From Eubacterium sp. (GTDB taxonomy: Bacteria; Bacillota; Clostridia; Oscillospirales; Ruminococcaceae), in assembly GCA_031271685.1 (NCBI GenBank), contig JAISVH010000062.1, forward strand, positions 1-47,226: 47,226 bases of DNA. Reading direction: 5' to 3'. Under the pieces are notes generated by a model. The model was not told the DNA's origin. It saw only the letters and a list, made by a program, of their open reading frames with translations, and did not search any database. The stretch's first letter is position 1. Every line of letters begins with the position of its first letter. Below are positions 4,296-44,550 of this stretch, piece after piece. Both the position numbers and the translations under genes were made by a program.

Positions 4296-6308
4296 ATGTT
4301 ACAAAGCGTATCACAGATAGCTTTTGTTCCGACGGCACAAGCAGGGATGATCGTTCCGTCTGAAAGCGTGACGGCAAACACCTTTGCCGACGCCCTTTTA
4401 GGTAATTTTAATTTGGAAACAGCAGTTCAGGCCGGACAGGAATATTTAGAGAATGAAACGATTATGAGCGCCGAATTCACACAGTATCTTGAAGTAGCAA
4501 TGAGAGAGATAGTGTTTAGTGGCAGTGAGGGAGAAGAAGATGCCAATGCGGTTTTAGGCCGACTTCTTGAGCTTGTTAAAGAACTTATAAACAATACGGA
4601 AGACTCCGGTTACCGCTCGGCGTTAGCTTATATCGCTGAAATGCTCATGAAAGCTCCTAATATGGAGAGAGACAGCTCGATAAGTTTTCTGAGCGCTTCG
4701 GTTAAATCTGGATATTCGGTTGAGCATGATTTTAGATCGGCCATGCACGATAAAGTTTCTATAGCGTCTTTAAATAGTGAGTTTGGAGAATATGAAGAGC
4801 AAGCGGTAAAAATCACGGCGGATGCGGTAAATACCATCCCTGAAGACGGCATGGAAGCTGCAATCCATCATAAATCTGATTATTCCGTCGAATTATCGAT
4901 CAAAGAACCGAAAGAAGCATGGACGGAGCATGAAATCGTTGGTTTTATGCCAGATGAAAGCTTGTTGCAAAAGCCGGTTAAAACTGCGAAGACGAATGAA
5001 AAATCAGAAACACTTGTATTAAACCAAGCCGTTCAGGATTTAATTAAAAACGAACATGCGGTAAACGCAGCCCCTGTATTCTCAGAACCGGTAAGCGTTG
5101 CCAAGATTTCTGAAATTATGGAAAAATCCCCAAAAGCTGAAGTTTATTATGAAAATTCGCAGATATATGGGCATGAAACAATTGAAAAAAACAGAAAGGT
5201 TTCTGATGTAAACATAACGCAGGAACCAATGCAGCCAAATTTGCGAAGTATAAGGAATGAAGCGGCAAACGTACAGAGTGTTACGGATGAAATAGCGGGT
5301 CATGTTTTAAAGACATCGGAATTTGCGGAACAAACAGTACAGTCAGCACAAACAGCAAACTCTAATGAGACAGTCCAAACAGAGCAACCTAATCCAATCA
5401 ACGCACAATTTGCAGGAATAATGCAAGCGGCTAAGACCATAGGCGAAGATCAGGTTTATATTGACACAAAACAAGCGGTGAGAACTTCGGAGTTAAAACA
5501 AACGGAGCTAGTTAGATTGTCGGCGAGGACAGAGGACGTTGAAGCGAAAGCGCGGATGGTTTTAAAAAGACTTACTGAGGCTGTAACCGAAGGGATTGCT
5601 TTGTCAAAAGCGGACTCAATAGATTTTTCGGGAATTTTTAAATTTTCAAAATTATCAGGTGTTCCGATATATGAAAAGCTTTCGGGAACAGATGTTTCGG
5701 CGGAATATAACCCTGCGGACGGTGTTATCAGAGGATTTGGGCTAGGGCTGGCCAAAGTTCAAAAACCAGGAGACCTTCAGGAAGTTTTGAGCAATCTACG
5801 CGGAAAAGAGTTTGATGAACCGCCAATTGTTAATCCGGTTTTACGTGAGCTGTCTTTAGGCAAAGTGATTTCTTTAGATCAAGCCGATAGCAGGGTCTCT
5901 GTTGCAAGACAGATAAGCGATCAAATCACTGCAAGACTGGCAAAAGCGCCTAACAACAGCTTTGAGTTTGAAATGACGCTTAACCCTGAAGAGCTTGGTA
6001 AAATTATCGTTAAGCTGGTTTCTGATTCAAGCGGGATGAGCCTTAGCATAAAAGCTGAACGTCCGGAAACCGCGGCAATTTTGCATAATCGTGCGGAAAA
6101 TATGACGACGGCTCTTATGGCGGACGGGATAAAGCTTGAGAACTACATTATTGAAACCGAACCTAGGCATGATCTTTATTATGGCCAAGATGGCAAAGAA
6201 AGTGGAAACCGAGACCGTCAAGATGACGGACAGCCCGCAGAAGAACGTGACGGCGGTGAGACTGAAGATGAATTAAACTTCAGCGAATTTCTGAGAATGG
6301 CTATTTAG
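4296..6308 (+). CDS. fliK: Flagellar hook-length control protein FliK
   Basis: FliK is a secreted molecular ruler that measures the hook and then signals FlhB to switch export from hook to filament substrates. The 670-residue protein has a long, poorly conserved, Gln/Glu/Thr-rich N-terminal part and a C-terminal hook-length domain (about residues 553-625) with the recognisable FEMTLNPEELGKIIVKL core, which corresponds to the 'LxPxxLGxVxVxL' family pattern. A strong AAAGGAGGGAGG site precedes the ATG. A second, more divergent FliK-like protein is encoded at 39924-42215. Confidence 0.93.
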   Translation: MLQSVSQIAFVPTAQAGMIVPSESVTANTFADALLGNFNLETAVQAGQEYLENETIMSAEFTQYLEVAMREIVFSGSEGEEDANAVLGRLLELVKELINNTEDSGYRSALAYIAEMLMKAPNMERDSSISFLSASVKSGYSVEHDFRSAMHDKVSIASLNSEFGEYEEQAVKITADAVNTIPEDGMEAAIHHKSDYSVELSIKEPKEAWTEHEIVGFMPDESLLQKPVKTAKTNEKSETLVLNQAVQDLIKNEHAVNAAPVFSEPVSVAKISEIMEKSPKAEVYYENSQIYGHETIEKNRKVSDVNITQEPMQPNLRSIRNEAANVQSVTDEIAGHVLKTSEFAEQTVQSAQTANSNETVQTEQPNPINAQFAGIMQAAKTIGEDQVYIDTKQAVRTSELKQTELVRLSARTEDVEAKARMVLKRLTEAVTEGIALSKADSIDFSGIFKFSKLSGVPIYEKLSGTDVSAEYNPADGVIRGFGLGLAKVQKPGDLQEVLSNLRGKEFDEPPIVNPVLRELSLGKVISLDQADSRVSVARQISDQITARLAKAPNNSFEFEMTLNPEELGKIIVKLVSDSSGMSLSIKAERPETAAILHNRAENMTTALMADGIKLENYIIETEPRHDLYYGQDGKESGNRDRQDDGQPAEERDGGETEDELNFSEFLRMAI

Positions 6309-18039: not shown

Positions 18040-19143
18040 TTGCCTGATAGTGGCGGAGAAAAGACCGAAAAGGCTACCCCAAAGAAGCGAAAGGATGCGA
18101 GGGAAAAAGAGGGGAATGTTCTTCAGAGCAAAGAGGTTGGAGTTGCGGTCTCGGTTCTTGGAATTTTTTGTGTTATGTCATTGTTGGCAAAATATATGTT
18201 TCAAATGATGATGGACGCAACTAAGAACTGGATTGTAAAAGCGGGACAGCCGGCAATTTTTAACTCGGAGTTTATTACTGAAAATTCATTAGGCATTTTG
18301 AAATATGGTGCGCTTATTTTAGGACCGATTCTTTTAACGGCGGTATTTTTTGGAGTGATTCCCGGAATAGTTCAGACTAAAGGCTTGTTTACTATGAAGC
18401 CCTTAAGACCGAAGTTTTCGAGATTAAGTCCGCTTAGCGGGATAAAACGGCTTTTTTCGGCTCAGTCAGCCATAGGTGTTTTGAAAGGAATTGTCGAAAT
18501 CGCGTTTATTATACTGATTGTATACTTAAAAATACAAGATTTAATGGTCGATTTGAAAAAGTTGCCGGAGATGGAGGTTATGCAGGGGGTCGTTTATACT
18601 GCAAGCAATATTTTTTCGATTATTATGACCATTGTAATTTTGTTAGTTGTAGTTGCCGCAGGGGATTTTGTGTTTCAATGGTGGCAGTATGAGAAAAAAC
18701 TTAAAATGTCTAAGCAGGAACTTAAAGACGAATATAAGCAAATGGAGGGCGACCCGCAAATAAAGGCAAGAATAAAGCAAAAGCAAAGAGAGATAGCACA
18801 GAATCGGATGATGGAGGAAGTTCCTGATTCTGATGTCGTTGTGAGAAATCCGACGCATTATGCCATCGCTTTGAAATATGACCGCGAGGACGCAATGTCA
18901 GCACCTAAGGTGGTGGCTAAGGGACAAGACATAATTGCTCAAAAAATAATTGATATAGCCAAAGAGCATGATATATATATAATTGAGGATCGGCCCACCG
19001 CTCGTCAGCTTTTTGATATGGTGGATGTAGGCAGGGAAATACCCGCTGAACTTTATAATGCGGTTGCGGTTATTTTAACCGAGATGTATGAGGCAAAAGG
19101 GATAAAGCTTAAAGAAGAGAAGAAGAGAAGTTTATATCTTTAA
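18040..19143 (+). CDS. flhB: Flagellar export switch protein FlhB
   Basis: FlhB is the export-gate component whose C-domain sets substrate specificity in response to FliK. It starts with TTG after TTAAGAGGTGAG. The N-terminus is typical (EKTEKATPKKRKDAREKEGN). Four membrane helices lie between residues 33 and 210. The autocleavage motif NPTH is intact at residues 270-273, followed by YAIALKYD and the C-terminal sub-domain. A separate homologue of just that sub-domain, lacking NPTH, is encoded at 39614-39937. Confidence 0.97.
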   Translation: MPDSGGEKTEKATPKKRKDAREKEGNVLQSKEVGVAVSVLGIFCVMSLLAKYMFQMMMDATKNWIVKAGQPAIFNSEFITENSLGILKYGALILGPILLTAVFFGVIPGIVQTKGLFTMKPLRPKFSRLSPLSGIKRLFSAQSAIGVLKGIVEIAFIILIVYLKIQDLMVDLKKLPEMEVMQGVVYTASNIFSIIMTIVILLVVVAAGDFVFQWWQYEKKLKMSKQELKDEYKQMEGDPQIKARIKQKQREIAQNRMMEEVPDSDVVVRNPTHYAIALKYDREDAMSAPKVVAKGQDIIAQKIIDIAKEHDIYIIEDRPTARQLFDMVDVGREIPAELYNAVAVILTEMYEAKGIKLKEEKKRSLYL

Positions 19144-36271: not shown

Positions 36272-36451
36272 TTAAAGCAACACCGCACAATTCACGCCTA
36301 AAGGCTTGACGAGCAAATCACTTGTGTATTTTTCGCCAAACTTAGTTGATTTCGCCTTAAATATCAACGGATATTCGCGGCAAAATCGCCTAGTTTGACG
36401 AAAAATCTTACTACGCGCTTTGCATGCCAGAGCTGTGCGGTATTGCTTTAA
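36272..36451. repeat. Repeat family B, full copy (180-bp MITE-like hairpin)
   Basis: Terminal inverted repeats of 18 nt with one mismatch: TTAAAGCAACACCGCACA at 36272-36289 and TGTGCGGTATTGCTTTAA at 36434-36451. The interior is also inverted (ATTTTTCGCCAAACTTAG against CTAGTTTGACGAAAAAT; GCCTTAAATATC against GATATTCGCGGC). There is no coding capacity. Together with the copy at 22206-22385 it defines the family. Confidence 0.9.
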
Positions 36452-36925: not shown

Positions 36926-37003
36926 TTAAGGCAATATAGCACAGCTTCGGCGTGCAAAGCACGTAGCCGAATTTTACGCCAAACTTAGTTAATTTTGCCT
37001 TAA
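36926..37003. repeat. Repeat family B, shortened copy
   Basis: TTAAGGCAATATAGCACAGC, ending GTGCAAAGCACGTAG, is the reverse-complement end of family B; it then passes to CGCCAAACTTAGTTAATTTT and ends GCCTTAA, inverted with the left end. 78 bp, ending 5 bp before the amidase stop codon on the opposite strand. Confidence 0.7.
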
Positions 37004-37008
37004 ATATT

Positions 37009-37761
37009 TCAGGATTTTTCTTCTTTTACATAAGAGTCTGTAAATCCTTTGTCTTCAAGAATTTTTTGCATTTTTTCAGCATTTTCTTTTTCGGTGAAAG
37101 CGCCTAGCTGCACTTTATACATCGAGGTTTGGTTATTGGGTTCTTCTGTTGGCACGACTTTTGCCGGGATATCAATTGATTCTTTAACATCTGTCCTGAA
37201 AGTGTCCATGGATTTGCCGTGCTTTGGAAACCAATGCATAACATCTGCGTGCCCGCTTGCTATTCCCAGTGTATTTCCTTCGCTGTGGCAGATAATATAA
37301 GGACTCTCCGGTTTGATATTATACGTTTTGCAAAGATATGCGCAAAGCTCGACCGCTTCTTTATAAATTTTGCTGAAATATGACTCGTCGGTCAGACCGT
37401 CTTCACAAATTTCTACGCCGATATAACCGTTATTATTTGCATTCGCGGAATATCCTTTTGTGCCACTCCCGCTGTGCCATCCTACTATATCCCACGGAAG
37501 GGTTTGATAGGTAGCTATTGAGCCGTCTTTAAGCTTGCCAATAAATCCGTGGGCGCACATCTGCGTATTTCCTTCAACTGTAGGCCGATTCCAATCATTG
37601 CCGTTGGGGTTCGGGCCAAGCAGTCCGTCGTCGGGCTGAACATATCTGCATAAATTGGGATTGTTCGCGCCTGTTGAATGCAGCATAAAGCCTTTTACCG
37701 CGTGCTTTTGTTTGGATTTATAGCAATCGTTTTGCGTTAGATAACATTGTTTAAGATTCAT
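37009..37761 (-). CDS. N-acetylmuramoyl-L-alanine amidase with SPOR-like tail (phage-type endolysin)
   Basis: A 250-residue Amidase_2-type peptidoglycan hydrolase. Likely metal/catalytic residues are H28 (GFMLHSTGANN), H159 (CHSEG), H171 and H176 (ASGHADVMHWFP). Residues about 212-248 (MYKVQLGAFTEKENAEKMQK) form a SPOR-like peptidoglycan-binding repeat. No signal peptide is visible, as expected for an endolysin that depends on a holin. The start at 37761 is preferred over 37776: the AGGGAAAA site lies just upstream and the ATG falls 1 nt after the holin stop. It is the only complete phage-like cassette in the window. Confidence 0.88.
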   Translation of the reverse strand: MNLKQCYLTQNDCYKSKQKHAVKGFMLHSTGANNPNLCRYVQPDDGLLGPNPNGNDWNRPTVEGNTQMCAHGFIGKLKDGSIATYQTLPWDIVGWHSGSGTKGYSANANNNGYIGVEICEDGLTDESYFSKIYKEAVELCAYLCKTYNIKPESPYIICHSEGNTLGIASGHADVMHWFPKHGKSMDTFRTDVKESIDIPAKVVPTEEPNNQTSMYKVQLGAFTEKENAEKMQKILEDKGFTDSYVKEEKS

Positions 37762-37762
37762 T

Positions 37763-37999
37763 TTATTTTCCCTCACTTTCTATATTAGTCTTTAAAATGC
37801 TTGCCGTTCCTTTATCTCCAAAGCTGTGGCTAGCTATAGAAGTCAGGACCGACATTATAGTTGACATGGCCGTGACGCTAAGAACGACTTTCCAATCTAC
37901 TTCGCCGAGCACGGTGTGTGTGCCTATTACCGCGATTGCTGAGTGCGCCGCTGTTTTGACCGCTCTTTCCAGAACATCAAGCCAAAATTGCTTAGTCAT
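37763..37999 (-). CDS. Holin, r1t-like
   Basis: A 78-residue protein upstream of the amidase with two predicted hydrophobic stretches (about 17-33 and 38-57) and the pattern MTKQFWLDVLERAVKTAAHS ending in SFGDKGTASIL, typical of phage r1t-type holins. It opens the membrane so that the endolysin reaches the wall. Ribosome site AGAAAGGAG lies 8 nt before the ATG. The order holin-amidase with ~1-nt spacing is that of a lysis cassette. Confidence 0.82.
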   Translation of the reverse strand: MTKQFWLDVLERAVKTAAHSAIAVIGTHTVLGEVDWKVVLSVTAMSTIMSVLTSIASHSFGDKGTASILKTNIESEGK

Positions 38000-38286: not shown

Positions 38287-38636
38287 GGGGCCGCAATGGT
38301 TTCGACGGGGATTTTGAATCACGCTAAGCATGCAGAGCCAGTCCCGACTCTTTAATCCGGGGCATTTTAAATTTAAACGCTAATAATAGAACAGCAGCTG
38401 TAGCTGCCTAAGCGCGCTACCGTCCGTTCTGAGAGAGCTGCGGCTCAGCATGGGCGTCAATAAGCAGCCAACGTTTTGTGTGATAGCCTTGTAGCGCAAA
38501 ACGTATCCAAAGGGCTACCAATCGGTGGTTTTGTCGGATTGTGCCGTCGTGCGGGAAATCTTTCAACCGACTAAGCATGTAGAAAGGTGTGTGGAAGGAT
38601 TTTCGGACAGGAGTTCGATTCTCCTCGGCTCCACCA
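38287..38636 (+). ncRNA. ssrA: Transfer-messenger RNA (tmRNA)
   Basis: tmRNA rescues stalled ribosomes and tags the incomplete protein for degradation. The 5' end GGGGCCGCAATGGTTTCGAC and the 3' end GAGTTCGATTCTCCTCGGCT then CCACCA are diagnostic; GGGGCCG pairs with CGGCTCC as the acceptor stem (one G-U), and CCA is encoded. The tag frame runs from the GCT at 38379 to TAA at 38409-38411 and encodes ANNRTAAVAA; many known tags end in ALAA, so AVAA is a variant. 350 nt in total. It is followed by a terminator at 38704. Confidence 0.97.
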
Positions 38637-38703
38637 AAATCATCGCTGGTCGAACACCCGATGGAGAGATTCATCTCTTTACGTACGGATTCGTACTGGC
38701 TGT

Positions 38704-39357: not shown

Positions 39358-39593
39358 TTTCAAACATTTGCGGCGGATCCGCTTCCAGCGTTTTAACAAG
39401 AGTTATAGTAAATTAACTTGAAAACAAAATAATTTCCGCAAAACCGCATGATATTTTGCAGTAAGTCCGCTTGTGCAGATTGTAATCGGTTAACTTTAAA
39501 TTTACTAAATTTAAAGTTAACCGATTACAATCTGCCGCCTAAGAGGAGGGGGGACATGAACGCGGTTATATTCAAGTTGATTTGCTATAAACT
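39358..39593 (-). repeat. Composite family A element with 30-bp palindrome
   Basis: The reverse complement of the family A right end (TTTCAAACATTTGCGGCGGA, CGCTTCCAGCGTTTTAACAA) is followed by an insert bounded by imperfect inverted ends: AGTTATAGTAAATTAACTTG at 39401 and CAAGTTGATTTGCTATAAAC near 39573. Inside is a perfect palindrome, arms 39475-39504 and 39506-39535 around one C (30 bp each), and then the family A left end (GCCGCCTAAGAGG, GAACGCGGTTATA). It lies at the 3' end of the minus-strand FlhB-like gene. Confidence 0.8.
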
Positions 39594-39613: not shown

Positions 39614-39937
39614 TTATTTATTTAATAGTTTTTTGCGCTTGTCTGATTCAACGCTTTTCCTGACTTCATCGGATGAATACACCACCTCTGCATAAATAGT
39701 CGCAACGATCGAATACAACGCCGGGGGAATATGCTCGCCACTATTGAGCATTACCAACAGCGCGGCAGCGCTATCATCACGGTAGATGGGAATGCCGTTT
39801 TCATCGGCTATATTAACTATTTTGCGGGCGACTTCGCCAAGCCCTGAAGCCACTACAACGGGCGCAAAATTAGTATCCGGGTTATATTTTAATGCTATAG
39901 CCGCCTTTTGCCCGTATGGAAGTTTACGCTGTGACAT
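39614..39937 (-). CDS. Stand-alone FlhB C-terminal-domain protein (YlqH/FhlB/FlhX type)
   Basis: A 107-residue homologue of the cytoplasmic switch domain of FlhB. KAAIALKYNPDTNFAPVVVA aligns with YAIALKYDREDAMSAPKVVA of the full FlhB encoded at 18040, and the following AxKIxxIAxExxIxIxxD pattern matches through IPPALYSIVATIYAEVVY. The NPTH autocleavage site is replaced by PYGQ, so this is a pre-separated fragment equivalent to the cleaved C-part. AGAGAGGG before the ATG lies within the end of the upstream gene, and the two genes overlap by 14 bp. Homologues (Bacillus YlqH, Helicobacter FlhX) are linked to export switching. Confidence 0.88.
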   Translation of the reverse strand: MSQRKLPYGQKAAIALKYNPDTNFAPVVVASGLGEVARKIVNIADENGIPIYRDDSAAALLVMLNSGEHIPPALYSIVATIYAEVVYSSDEVRKSVESDKRKKLLNK

Positions 39938-42215
39938 TAAATCCCTCTCTCTTTTCTAAGATGCTAGGAAAAACTTCGGTTAAGTTATGAGGCTTTATCA
40001 GAGGACCGGTGACAAAACTTCTTGTGACATATCCTGAACCGGCTATGATTCTGCCCACTTTATTTACTATGTCTCCGATATTATCGGAAAAGCTTTCCGG
40101 GTGAAGCAGAGAAATGTTTACATCTTCACCGGAGGAGCGCAAATCTATTTCAAAACGTCCGATAGAATCTATATCAAATGTTAAAAACAAATGATATGTC
40201 CTTTTTCCAGGTTCTGAATCGGCGGTGTTTTCCTCATCGTTATTGACCCACAATTCTCCGAAAGCGCGGGTTTCGTTGAATTCTACAGGTATTATATAAT
40301 GGGATAGAGGAGTGAACACTCCCGGAGCGTTTATCAAGCTTTGTAAAAGATTTGAGGCATTATAGTTATTAACAGTTTTAAGTGCGGGGTGATCTATGTT
40401 CTTTTCTATAAATCCTATAAGCTCATTGAGCGATGAGCTTTTTTCAGCTGCTTGAGTTTCGTTTCCTCCCGACCGATGATTTGCGGCTTGTTCGGTTGAG
40501 CGGCCTTCTGCCAGTTCTGGAAAAGGTTTTTCTGACATAGGCAATTCATCGTTTTCCACCATTTTATTTATTATCTCTAAAAAGGACTCATAAATATTTT
40601 GGCGGATGTCGACTTCCGGCATTGCTTTAAGCACATCGTTAAGATAAACTATTAGAGAGTCTATATCTTCTATCTGCGTCATTTCGGAATCAATGCCGAC
40701 CTTTAATTGTTCCGAACCGGATAGGTTTATCATGTTTTTTAGAATATCAGAAATCGCGGTTTTGCCGTCGTTTTTGCCAAGCAGGAATCCTCTTACTGCT
40801 GAATCCAGAACTTCTTGATTAATTATATCGCTATTTCCCGTGAATTCGTTTTGGTCAAATTCGCCCCACAACGCCGCAGCTGAATTTTTTTGTGAGGCAA
40901 CTGCTTGCGTCTCAGGAAAAGTTTGGTTTTGAACCGGCTGACCAAAAGAATCGATGTCTTCTTTAAAAGTATTTATAATGTCGCCGGAATGTCTCGCGGT
41001 AACTCCTTCTTTTTGTGGCGTTTGGGTTGTCGGTGCGGCTTGTGTATTTTCTTGCGTTTGGTTTTCCGTGGTATTATTGTTGATATTATTATTATTATTA
41101 TTTTGGAATTGGTTTGCTTCGTTATTGGCAGAGACATTATTATTTGTTTGCGCGGTTTGAGCATTCCCGGAAATAGGGTTTTGTGAATCTGCCGGTGTGT
41201 TTGTATTCGCAAATCCCGTCAAGCTTTCGGCATTGTTGAAGTTTGGAGTGTTTGCTATTCCTGCCGTGTTTGCTGTGTCTTGACCGGCGGCCTGTCCGCC
41301 CAACGCCTGTCTATTGGCTTGTGGAAACAATTGTTCTAACAACTTATCAAATTCTCCGGCTAATATTGATTTAGTTACACGGTCAGGAATAACGGTTATC
41401 AGGTTGTTAAAATATTCTAAAAGCATGTTTTTATTAGTATTATACCGGGATAAATTATGGATTATAAGGGGGATAAGCACCTGTGTGCGATCGTTATTAA
41501 GAAGGCTTTCAGAAACATTTTTTAAAATAAAAAGGGTTTCGTCTTTAAGGTTGGCAAAATTGTCGCCGGCTTGGGGAGCCCCCCATTGTTTTGCTAGTTC
41601 CCCTAAGTCTGTGGAAAGCCCTTTGTTTGGGGCAAAATATCCTGAAAGAAACTTCATGTTAAAAGATAGGGCGCTTAATATTTCGTCTTTATTTTGGGCA
41701 AAATTTACAGCTTTTAGTATATTACCTATTGCGCTCTCTAGATCTTCGTTGCCGCTCAGCTTTGCTTCGGCCGCGATATTTCTTAATATATCAAAGAAAC
41801 CATTTCCGCTAAACATGGTATTATCTCGCTCTTGTGACGTTATCTCGGTCAATAGTTTATCCGGCGTGATAAACAGCGATTTCATCATGGAGTCAAGTTC
41901 ACCGTACAGCTCGGTGTAGCCATTGACTTTAGCAACGGTTAACAAATCCTCATTAACTATCTGCCTCATGGCCTCAACGGCCAAAGTCGGATCTTTGGCT
42001 ATTTTAACAGTCATTGGCAGAAAACCCTTCTGCCCTGTCATCAAGTCGGCGCGTCCGCCTGCGGGTCGTTCTCCGGACTGCTCCGTCACTAACGGATTTT
42101 CGATTTGAATTATTTCAAAACGCTCGGATTCCCCGCTGCCTTTTTGGGATAGATTTCCGGTCGCGTAACCTTTTCCCCCACCCAACGGATTAGTAATTTG
42201 AGGAATGCCCGCCAT
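39924..42215 (-). CDS. Large FliK-like protein partnered with the FlhB C-domain (YlqG-like)
   Basis: 763 residues. The N-terminal ~270 are helical; about 270-420 is low-complexity and Asn/Gln/Thr-rich (NNNNNINNNTTENQTQ); a second helical part follows; the C-terminal ~150 residues contain a strand-rich segment (LFLTFDIDSIGRFEIDLRSS, then GEDVNISLLHPES) that resembles the hook-length domain of FliK. Overlap with the FlhB-like gene mirrors the Bacillus ylqG-ylqH pair. Its own promoter is at 42260-42288 and the ribosome site is AAAGGGGTGA. I call it FliK-like from layout and the C-terminal segment; firm proof would need a profile search. Confidence 0.72.
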   Translation of the reverse strand: MAGIPQITNPLGGGKGYATGNLSQKGSGESERFEIIQIENPLVTEQSGERPAGGRADLMTGQKGFLPMTVKIAKDPTLAVEAMRQIVNEDLLTVAKVNGYTELYGELDSMMKSLFITPDKLLTEITSQERDNTMFSGNGFFDILRNIAAEAKLSGNEDLESAIGNILKAVNFAQNKDEILSALSFNMKFLSGYFAPNKGLSTDLGELAKQWGAPQAGDNFANLKDETLFILKNVSESLLNNDRTQVLIPLIIHNLSRYNTNKNMLLEYFNNLITVIPDRVTKSILAGEFDKLLEQLFPQANRQALGGQAAGQDTANTAGIANTPNFNNAESLTGFANTNTPADSQNPISGNAQTAQTNNNVSANNEANQFQNNNNNNINNNTTENQTQENTQAAPTTQTPQKEGVTARHSGDIINTFKEDIDSFGQPVQNQTFPETQAVASQKNSAAALWGEFDQNEFTGNSDIINQEVLDSAVRGFLLGKNDGKTAISDILKNMINLSGSEQLKVGIDSEMTQIEDIDSLIVYLNDVLKAMPEVDIRQNIYESFLEIINKMVENDELPMSEKPFPELAEGRSTEQAANHRSGGNETQAAEKSSSLNELIGFIEKNIDHPALKTVNNYNASNLLQSLINAPGVFTPLSHYIIPVEFNETRAFGELWVNNDEENTADSEPGKRTYHLFLTFDIDSIGRFEIDLRSSGEDVNISLLHPESFSDNIGDIVNKVGRIIAGSGYVTRSFVTGPLIKPHNLTEVFPSILEKREGFNVTA

Positions 42216-42259
42216 TCCGTCACCCCTTTTTTATTTGGTTAGCTTAACATTCTTGTATT

Positions 42260-42288
42260 ATTCTACCATACTTTAGAGATATAGTCAA
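42260..42288 (-). promoter_or_regulatory. Sigma-A-type promoter for the FliK-like/FlhB-like pair
   Basis: On the minus strand TTGACT (42283-42288) and TAGAAT (42260-42265) are separated by 17 bp. Initiation near 42253 leaves ~40 nt before the ATG at 42215. It is back-to-back with the cheA promoter. Confidence 0.8.
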
Positions 42289-42340
42289 TAAAATTTAACA
42301 CTAAAAATGTGAATTGTTTATAATTTGTTAACAAAAACAC

Positions 42341-42369
42341 TTGCGTTAAAGGAAAAATTATGTTATAAT
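42341..42369 (+). promoter_or_regulatory. Extended -10 promoter for cheA
   Basis: TTGCGT at 42341-42346, 17-bp spacer, TATAAT at 42364-42369 preceded by TGT. Its start would lie about 40 nt before the cheA ATG. Confidence 0.78.
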
Positions 42370-42414: not shown

Positions 42415-44550
42415 ATGGCAAAAGTTGAATCTGGAATGGAAGCAATGATTGACATGTACATATTTGAAACCAACACGTTGCTTGAACAGCTTGATGAAAT
42501 ACTTTTAAGAACGGAAACGGCAAACGTTTTCACTGACGAGGATATCAACGAAATTTTCAGAATCATGCACACTGTGAAGGGTTCTTCGGCAATGATGGGA
42601 TTTGAGAACCTTCAGTTGCTTGCTCATAAAGGCGAGGATATGTTTTTCATGATTCGCGAAAATCCCGGAAAAATTAAAGATACCAGATTTATCTATGACC
42701 TTGTTTTCCGTATGTCTGACTTATTTAAAGCGGAAGTAGAACTTATTCAGAGCGGTGGAGAATATAATCCCACCGATTTTTCGTCAGCATTGACGGAGCT
42801 TGAAAAAGGAGCCGAAATGATAAAATCGGCAAATTCGGGCAGTGCGCACATAGTGGCTTCGTCACAGGCGCTTCCGTCTAATAAGCCGGCTTTCGCTCCT
42901 CCTTCAAATTCCGAAAACGTTATTTCAGTGCGCATTTTCTTTCAAGAAGGATGCAAAATGGAACATTTACGGTCTTTTTTGCTTCTAAATAAAATTCGAG
43001 AAGAGGCTCAAGTTATCGATTTTATCCCTCACGACTTAGAGGAGGATCCTGATGCGGCTTCAAAAATTATTGACAACGGTTTTGTCTTGACGTTTAAAGC
43101 GGAAGACAACCAGGCGGTTATGAAGATAATTGAGAACGCGGTAAATGTTGAGTCGTATGAGGTGTTTGAGAATAGCGATGACCTGTCTCCGGAATTTCAG
43201 GAAATAGCGGCGGCATCCGAGGGCGCGGCGGGAGAAGTTCTTGAAGAAACCGTCTCATATGTTCCGGAACCGATTGCCGTGCCCATTAAGACCCAGGAGG
43301 CTTCAAGCGGGTTCACTCCTCAAGCTGAAGCCGCACAGCAAATGCAAGGTCAACAGCTTAACTCTTCGGGCAAGCAAAGCATAATAAGCGTAAATCTTTC
43401 AAAGCTTGATCAGCTTCATGATATAGTCGGCGAAATCATTACTACTGAAACTATGGTTATTGCTAATCCTGAGCTTGAGGGTTTAAAGCTCGAAAGTTTT
43501 CTTAAATCGGCGCGTGAGCTTAAAAAGCTGACCGACGAGCTGCAAGATACGGTCATGTCGATAAGGATGGTTCCGCTTGCCGGTCCGTTTCAAAAAATGA
43601 ACCGTATTGTCAGGGATATGAAAGTTAAATTGGGCAAGGACGTTGAACTTAAAATCGAGGGAGAAACCACCGAAGTTGACAAATCTATCGTGGATAATTT
43701 GAATGACCCCCTTATGCACTTGGTTCGCAATTGCATGGATCACGGCATTGAAAATAACGTTCAGGACAGGATTGAGGCGGGTAAAAATGCAAGGGGAGTG
43801 ATTACCCTTAATGCTTCCAGTTCATCGGGCGAGGTAATTATAACCGTAAGCGATGACGGCGGCGGCATTGACACCGAAAAGGTGCTTAGAAAATGTGAGG
43901 AAAACGGCTTGCTTTATAAGCCGGCAAATGAATATACCGAGCGCGAAATACAAAATATGATTTTACTTCCCGGTTTTTCTACCAACGAGGTGGTTACCGA
44001 ATACAGCGGTCGCGGTGTTGGGATGGATGTTGTTCGTCAAAACATTGAAAAATGCGGCGGCTCGCTTACGGTTGAAAGCAGGCAGGGCGAGGGCACCATG
44101 TTTGTTATCAAAATTCCGCTGACTTTAGCTATTATCGAGGGGATGGAGGTCGAGGTAGACGACACAATATTCACTATCCCGATATCCGCAATAAAAGAAT
44201 CTTTCAAGGTTAAAAGCAGTGATATTATCCATGACACACAGCATGGAGAGATGATAATGATACGCGGGGTATGCTATCCTATTCTTCGTCTTCACGAAAA
44301 ATTTTCTATTGCGACGGAAATAACAGACTTTGAGGATGGAATACTTATACTTGTTGAAACTGACAAAAAAAATGTGTGTATTTTCGCTGACAGGCTAATT
44401 GGAGAGCAGCAGGTGGTGGTCAAACCTTTCCCGGCTTATCTTAATAGATATAATATAAAAGGTGCGGGACTTTCCGGCTGTACTATAATGGGCGACGGAA
44501 GTATAGCGTTGATAATTGATGTCGCTAACTTGATAGAAGGAGGATTTTAA
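42415..44550 (+). CDS. cheA: Chemotaxis histidine kinase CheA
   Basis: CheA phosphorylates CheY and CheB in response to receptors. The 711 residues contain the HPt domain with phospho-acceptor H52 (FRIMHTVKGSSAMMGF), a CheY/CheB-binding P2-like segment (about 165-250), a Gln-rich linker, dimerisation helices (about 320-385), the HATPase domain with HLVRNCMDHGIE, DDGGGIDTEKV and GRGVGMDVVRQN, and a C-terminal CheW-like domain (about 565-705). Ribosome site GGAAAGGAAAGGG. It is the first gene of cheA-W-R-B. Confidence 0.98.
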   Translation: MAKVESGMEAMIDMYIFETNTLLEQLDEILLRTETANVFTDEDINEIFRIMHTVKGSSAMMGFENLQLLAHKGEDMFFMIRENPGKIKDTRFIYDLVFRMSDLFKAEVELIQSGGEYNPTDFSSALTELEKGAEMIKSANSGSAHIVASSQALPSNKPAFAPPSNSENVISVRIFFQEGCKMEHLRSFLLLNKIREEAQVIDFIPHDLEEDPDAASKIIDNGFVLTFKAEDNQAVMKIIENAVNVESYEVFENSDDLSPEFQEIAAASEGAAGEVLEETVSYVPEPIAVPIKTQEASSGFTPQAEAAQQMQGQQLNSSGKQSIISVNLSKLDQLHDIVGEIITTETMVIANPELEGLKLESFLKSARELKKLTDELQDTVMSIRMVPLAGPFQKMNRIVRDMKVKLGKDVELKIEGETTEVDKSIVDNLNDPLMHLVRNCMDHGIENNVQDRIEAGKNARGVITLNASSSSGEVIITVSDDGGGIDTEKVLRKCEENGLLYKPANEYTEREIQNMILLPGFSTNEVVTEYSGRGVGMDVVRQNIEKCGGSLTVESRQGEGTMFVIKIPLTLAIIEGMEVEVDDTIFTIPISAIKESFKVKSSDIIHDTQHGEMIMIRGVCYPILRLHEKFSIATEITDFEDGILILVETDKKNVCIFADRLIGEQQVVVKPFPAYLNRYNIKGAGLSGCTIMGDGSIALIIDVANLIEGGF

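Follow-up and report, generated by a model that had tools for sequence, protein, structure and literature searches.

The 47,226-nucleotide contig analysed here (JAISVH010000062.1, hereafter the window) comes from an uncultured gut bacterium classified as Eubacterium sp. (Ruminococcaceae). Besides FlhA, a full-length FlhB and a canonical FliK (FliK1), it encodes a second pair of genes, divergent from cheA: fliK2, coding for a FliK-like protein, and flhX, coding for a free FlhB C-terminal domain (Table 1). The explanation that we favour, with a probability of roughly 45%, is that FliK2 and FlhX form a second ruler-and-switch set of one and the same flagellum, and that the pair has, within this genus, largely taken over the switching step. 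The observed basis for this consists of gene order, conservation, the distribution of a C-terminal pentapeptide (the tail), the co-variation of the lengths of the two FliKs and a predicted fold. The original prediction had described the two overlapping minus-strand open reading frames, the cheA gene that they face, the full-length FlhB and the canonical FliK, and all of these are present in the window. Since both genes of the pair are conserved in relatives, their reading frames are not chance ones.

What the original prediction had missed is the switch pentapeptide, which is present on FliK2 and absent from the canonical FliK. The FliK of Escherichia coli ends in VDIFA and, for Salmonella, a passage of PMC10965912 names the last five residues of FliK, together with residues 301-350, as important for export switching. 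We have counted the motif as Phi-[DN]-x-x-[AIV] at the C-terminal end, a pattern met at 0.74% of positions inside FliK2 proteins. It is found on FliK2 in all 35 rows of our set A1 (the window, locus L083 and 33 of the 44 loci fetched in which FliK2 is present), in which genus membership was not checked locus by locus and from which near copies and partial sequences were left out (L007, L011, L016, L022, L023, L024, L027, L036, L037, L039 and L050). The window protein itself ends in FNVTA. The canonical FliK1 of the genus, in contrast, has the tail in 0 of 26 proteins (of the 28 genomes matching PF02120, all except G021 and G024). Elsewhere, the FliK located by flhX carries it in 34 of 36 cases; the 36 include G040, where the two genes have an intervening frame. 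So does the canonical FliK in 26 of 29 Clostridia without flhX, that is, with one FlhB-type match; the FlhB frame was seen at full length in 19 of these (17 with the tail) and was not listed in 10 (nine with the tail). The canonical FliK of genomes outside the genus that do have flhX retains it in 30 of 39, a sample hand-picked for family spread and not comprising all that exist, with G088 counted by its two TIGR00789 matches only. Several of the misses are near misses; clear losses from FliK1 outside the genus were seen in G196, G264, G040 and G047, and the canonical FliK of G036 retains the tail. In G040 (locus L243) the frame between the FliK2-type gene and flhX has 247 amino acids, in a genome whose canonical FliK is tailless. 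The FliK1 proteins of the genus have an alternative conserved end, FxxxPhi, in 26 of 26, compared with 2 of 29 and 3 of 39 in the two other sets and at most 11 of 26 in shuffles.

The second line of evidence is length. Among 27 congeners (G012 and G017 omitted) the stop-to-stop frame lengths of FliK1 and FliK2 correlate with r 0.942 and a slope of 0.85; r is 0.83 without the four longest and 0.62 without the seven longest. Independent contrasts on the FlhB tree, covering the 21 genomes with a fetched FlhB, gave r 0.869 (p 3e-7, leave-one-out 0.825-0.892). As controls, the contrasts of FlgD with the FliKs were 0.46 and 0.47 (p about 0.03), those of FlhB length 0.32 and 0.26, and those of IF-2 (G025 and G035, with a split IF-2, omitted) -0.58 with FliK1 (p 0.007, leave-one-out -0.24 to -0.68) and -0.35 with FliK2. 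The raw correlation of CheA and FliK2 lengths over 38 loci was -0.03. It is this co-variation that points to FliK2 as a putative exported ruler setting hook length. The earlier suggestion that the pair might gauge a separate substrate is unsupported, because in the genus the two FliKs change length together. Within FliK2 the variation lies in the linkers (20-332 and 14-120 amino acids) and not in the folded parts, most of it in linker 1 (L033, which has an odd N terminus, is excluded from these segment lengths). By eye, the linkers of L019, L033, L043 and L044 are enlarged by tandem repeats of about 12 residues of the D-x-x-G-x-P type, an expansion that would be compatible with a ruler growing by repeats.

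The kinship of FliK2 had to be established indirectly. Searched by itself, the protein matches no FliK family of Pfam or NCBIfam (no PF02120 at E<=1), and PF02120 is not among the families listed for the A1 rows (the first 25 of 64 families). Over the whole genome, PF02120 exceeds its cut-off in one FliK, the canonical one, with one additional weak match on another contig. Genome G203 yielded no match to PF02120. Long proteins that are the positional counterparts of FliK2 in other Clostridia do, however, match PF02120 in 30 of 31 cases at E<=0.01, and a profile of the FliK2 C-terminal domain reaches ten such counterparts, L083 at 2.4e-26 and the next at 2.5e-7. At E<=1 this profile found no other of 1401 reading frames outside the family of the window and no reversed decoy. 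A Foldseek search with the predicted structure of the domain had the switch domain of PscP as top match and FliK (2rrl) at rank 7, none of the matches reaching E 0.001. Taken together, the bridging relatives and the comparison of predicted folds, both of which are needed, support FliK2 as a probable divergent FliK, along the lines of the original description of the protein as FliK-like.

FlhX matches the C-terminal part of FlhB (PF01312, profile positions 261-335, E 3.6e-17, 63 bits against a gathering score of 24.4) and the family TIGR00789 (flhB_rel) at E 1e-20; its 73.7 bits are under the curated cut-off of 117.35, which was reached in 0 of 293 genomes of the class. It is a stand-alone C-terminal domain lacking NPTH alongside a full FlhB. 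The NPTH motif, present in 21 of 21 FlhB proteins, had been described as replaced by PYGQ; it is indeed missing, but the gapless register puts Y8-G9-Q10-K11 there, and the 21 FlhX have [YFL]-G-[QK]-x at the same position. In the early-substrate pocket, as described for Salmonella FlhB in passages of PMC13344023, residues A25, P26 and A79 of FlhX equal A286, P287 and A341, and Y82 occupies the position of L344. Mean pairwise identity in 21 congeners is 83% for FlhX, 65% for the C-terminal domain of FlhB and 53% for its N-terminal part, making FlhX the most conserved of the parts compared, which agrees with the proposal that it mimics an already cleaved FlhB C-part.

The presence of the pair follows that of the flagellum. 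FliK2 was found in 28 of the 35 genomes of the genus, and the seven others lack FlhA, FlhB and a PF02120 FliK as well. FlhA accompanies FliK2 in 26 of the 28 genomes, the two without it (G016 and G017) being 76 and 88% complete, and FlhX in 27 of 28 (the FliK2 of G012 is a piece at a contig end). This co-occurrence with FlhA and FlhB would be compatible with a role of FlhX in flagellar export, and conservation together with joint absence argues for function. Scanning with FlhX yielded 49 related loci, whose titles point mostly to termite-gut and herbivore-gut metagenome-assembled genomes of Oscillospiraceae and Ruminiclostridium. FliK2 is immediately upstream of flhX in 39 of them and slightly further upstream in five (L028, L029, L038, L043 and L044); four (L014, L031, L034 and L041) have little or no upstream DNA in which it could be found. 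In the remaining locus, L005 (G347), whose FlhX identity is the highest of all, flhX follows cheA-cheW-cheR-cheB on the same strand, and fliK2, whose product also ends in FNVTA, is on a separate contig. Outside the genus, locus L325 reads ylqF, rnhB, FliK2, flhX, yraN (named by NCBIfam), and the 17 regions from other Clostridia, this one included, have rnhB in 13, ylqF in 12 and yraN in 12; G036, G118, G162 and G236 have none of the three by the pair. Judging from its place by rnhB in those 13 regions, the pair is old. It adjoins cheA in the family of the window and in G047, G196, G264, G137 and G214, and these are grouped in the FlhX tree (99/96; for its label 'tail kept' the pattern was relaxed so that near misses count).

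Tail and length data would be most simply explained if both FliKs reach through one hook and FliK2 and FlhX carry the switching end. In the Salmonella model, as given in passages of PMC13344023, FliK ejects the cleaved C-terminal domain of FlhB and so ends early export. In the scheme that we infer (covering the export of FliK2, the binding of FlhX at the gate, the identity of the protein that flips the switch and the order of events), FliK2 would be exported through the growing hook like FliK1, with a reach that has to equal that of FliK1. At full hook length its C-terminal domain and pentapeptide would act on an FlhB C-terminal domain at the export gate, which may be the separately made, never-tethered FlhX, the part attached to FlhB, or both. 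This action would stop hook export and begin filament export, and FliK1 would retain ruler and core, having lost the pentapeptide. A stricter version, more doubtful and put forward only tentatively, is that FliK2 and a born-cleaved FlhX have taken the specificity switch over from the canonical FliK and the C-terminal domain of FlhB. The canonical FliK would be left as a ruler matched in length and ending in the new FxxxPhi, so that two matched rulers would probe each hook and only one would flip the gate. Two observations weigh against the favoured explanation: there are few events behind the loss of the tail from FliK1, and the FliK lengths of 36 genomes outside the genus show a raw correlation of 0.01, which becomes 0.52 only when three outliers are removed.

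Among the alternatives, FlhX could be a spare FlhB C-domain like HP1575 of Helicobacter; FliK2 would then be dedicated to removing it from the gate, and the main switch would remain with FliK1. Three of the four pocket residues are kept in FlhX, and in G331 and G339, also Clostridia, no FliK adjoins flhX and FliK1 retains the tail. A spare part has no need to be more conserved than the original, yet FlhX is, and neither the tail loss of FliK1 nor the length co-variation is required by this explanation, which we consider unlikely. A little less credible still is that the pair serves another checkpoint in this machine, for instance the passage from rod to hook or from hook cap to junction proteins; FlhX would then be a soluble dock for early subunits and would select substrates by its altered pocket (Y82 in place of L344). 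The pocket is conserved with one fixed change, and the new end of FliK1 could be a docking motif, FxxxPhi being a form of gate motif (although a search for it in one paper found nothing). However, the last 20 residues contain FxxxPhi in 19 of 35 FliK2 rows as well, and in 13 of 36 FliKs by flhX elsewhere; the co-variation in length suggests that a single structure is gauged, and the explanation names no substrate.

It is also conceivable, although improbable, that the tail of FliK2 is conserved merely by its overlap with the start of flhX, that FliK1 lost its tail by neutral drift and that the genes are a ylqG-ylqH pair kept by descent with little effect. The ATG of flhX is contained in the AAT-GTx of the Asn-Val codons, so N and V are not free where the genes overlap, and the overlap of 14 bp is retained in 29 of the 39 loci with adjacent genes. 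Papers on ylqG and ylqH give no function in the portions available, one of them tabulating a ylqG point mutation in evolved Bacillus subtilis. Nevertheless, all 14 A1 rows without overlap retain the motif, often with D instead of N, as does the FliK2 of G347, apart from flhX; tail conservation therefore goes beyond an effect of the overlap, and the 34 of 36 loci elsewhere, the conservation of FlhX and its joint absence with the flagellum speak in the same direction.

The sigma-A-type promoter first assigned to the pair, TTGACT-N17-TAGAAT, is present, but 16 of 100 single-base shuffles contained a site as good, and in the 34 relatives scanned the position of the best site varies, which leaves it a plausible candidate. 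Of the co-regulation with chemotaxis also proposed, the divergent arrangement with cheA stands (38 of 38 loci of this lineage containing both genes), and a conserved promoter was not found in the same relatives. A regulatory unit in which the pair sets the timing of chemotaxis gene output or of export, as this arrangement and the five genomes outside the family might suggest, is scarcely credible given the rnhB neighbourhood in other Clostridia, the lack of a conserved shared promoter in the relatives scanned and the deviating order in the near relative L005.

Free FlhB C-domains (FlhX, YlqH) and their FliK neighbours are already known as genes. The likeness to ylqG-ylqH of B. subtilis noted at the outset, a FliK-like gene followed by a free FlhB C-domain, is consistent with the clostridial order of L325, which resembles what we take to be the Bacillus order; unlike there, the lineage of the window has the pair relocated beside cheA and a FliK1 without tail. 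FlhX of Helicobacter (HP1575), which we know by title only, is likewise a free C-domain beside a full FlhB and was reportedly described as a 'spare part' (Wand et al. 2006). Salmonella and E. coli share the FliK switch domain and a C-terminal pentapeptide acting on the FlhB C-domain; they have one FliK and obtain the FlhB C-part by self-cleavage, whereas in the window a C-part comes from a separate gene and the tail is on a second FliK. In Campylobacterota (Nitratiruptor), a passage of PMC9321776 names flhX-fliK as a pair away from the main cluster, but there the partner is fliK itself and not a second FliK beside a canonical one. Passages of PMC10746217 list FlhX among flagellar proteins in Actinobacteria.

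Table 1. Features of the pair and of related genes in the window.
Feature	Position	Strand	Basis or remark
flhX, free FlhB C-domain, 107 aa, without NPTH	39614..39937	-	open reading frame, profile search
fliK2, FliK-like protein, 763 aa	39924..42215	-	open reading frame, relatives, fold comparison
fliK2/flhX overlap, 14 bp	39924..39937	-	open reading frame coordinates
Codons of FliK2 C-terminal pentapeptide FNVTA	39927..39941	-	flhX start codon inside Asn-Val codons
FliK2 N-terminal helical domain, residues 76-306	41298..41990	-	near-constant length in relatives
FliK2 disordered linker 1, residues 301-443	40887..41315	-	20-332 aa in 33 A1 rows
FliK2 C-terminal switch-type domain, residues 637-738	40002..40307	-	predicted fold, b-b-b-b-b-a-b
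Candidate sigma-A promoter of the pair, TTGACT-N17-TAGAAT	42260..42288	-	promoter scan
Candidate cheA extended -10, TGTTATAAT	42361..42369	+	by eye
cheA, divergent from the pair	42415..44550	+	open reading frame
fliK1, canonical FliK, ends FSEFLRMAI, without pentapeptide	4296..6308	+	PF02120 E 2.4e-12; flgD next
flhB, full length, with NPTH	18040..19143	+	E 1.1e-116

As to the surrounding sequence, a perfect 30-bp inverted repeat with a 1-nt loop lies downstream of flhX (39475-39535), and related palindromes of about 40-60 bp recur across the genome (78 rows, in which most places appear once per strand). A tmRNA gene (38287-38636; RF00023, 165.9 bits) lies between an amidase-SPOR gene (37009-37776, minus strand) and the pair; a frame of 85 amino acids at 38417-38674, mostly inside it, is likely spurious. 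Upstream of the amidase region there is a 48-nt direct repeat (36328-36375 and 36971-37018, 83% identical, 643 nt apart).

What is new here is the distribution of the tail between FliK2 and FliK1, the co-variation of FliK lengths in the genus and the conservation of FlhX above that of the FlhB C-domain; we recognised no literature on FliK tail distribution or on a link between FliK lengths among the titles and abstract openings returned. The way in which FliK flips the switch has long been a question, and a further one is what the free FlhB C-domains do that many flagellated bacteria carry. A natural lineage in which the tail is off one FliK and kept on the other, with lengths matched, would separate measuring from switching and offers direct tests in a model flagellate.
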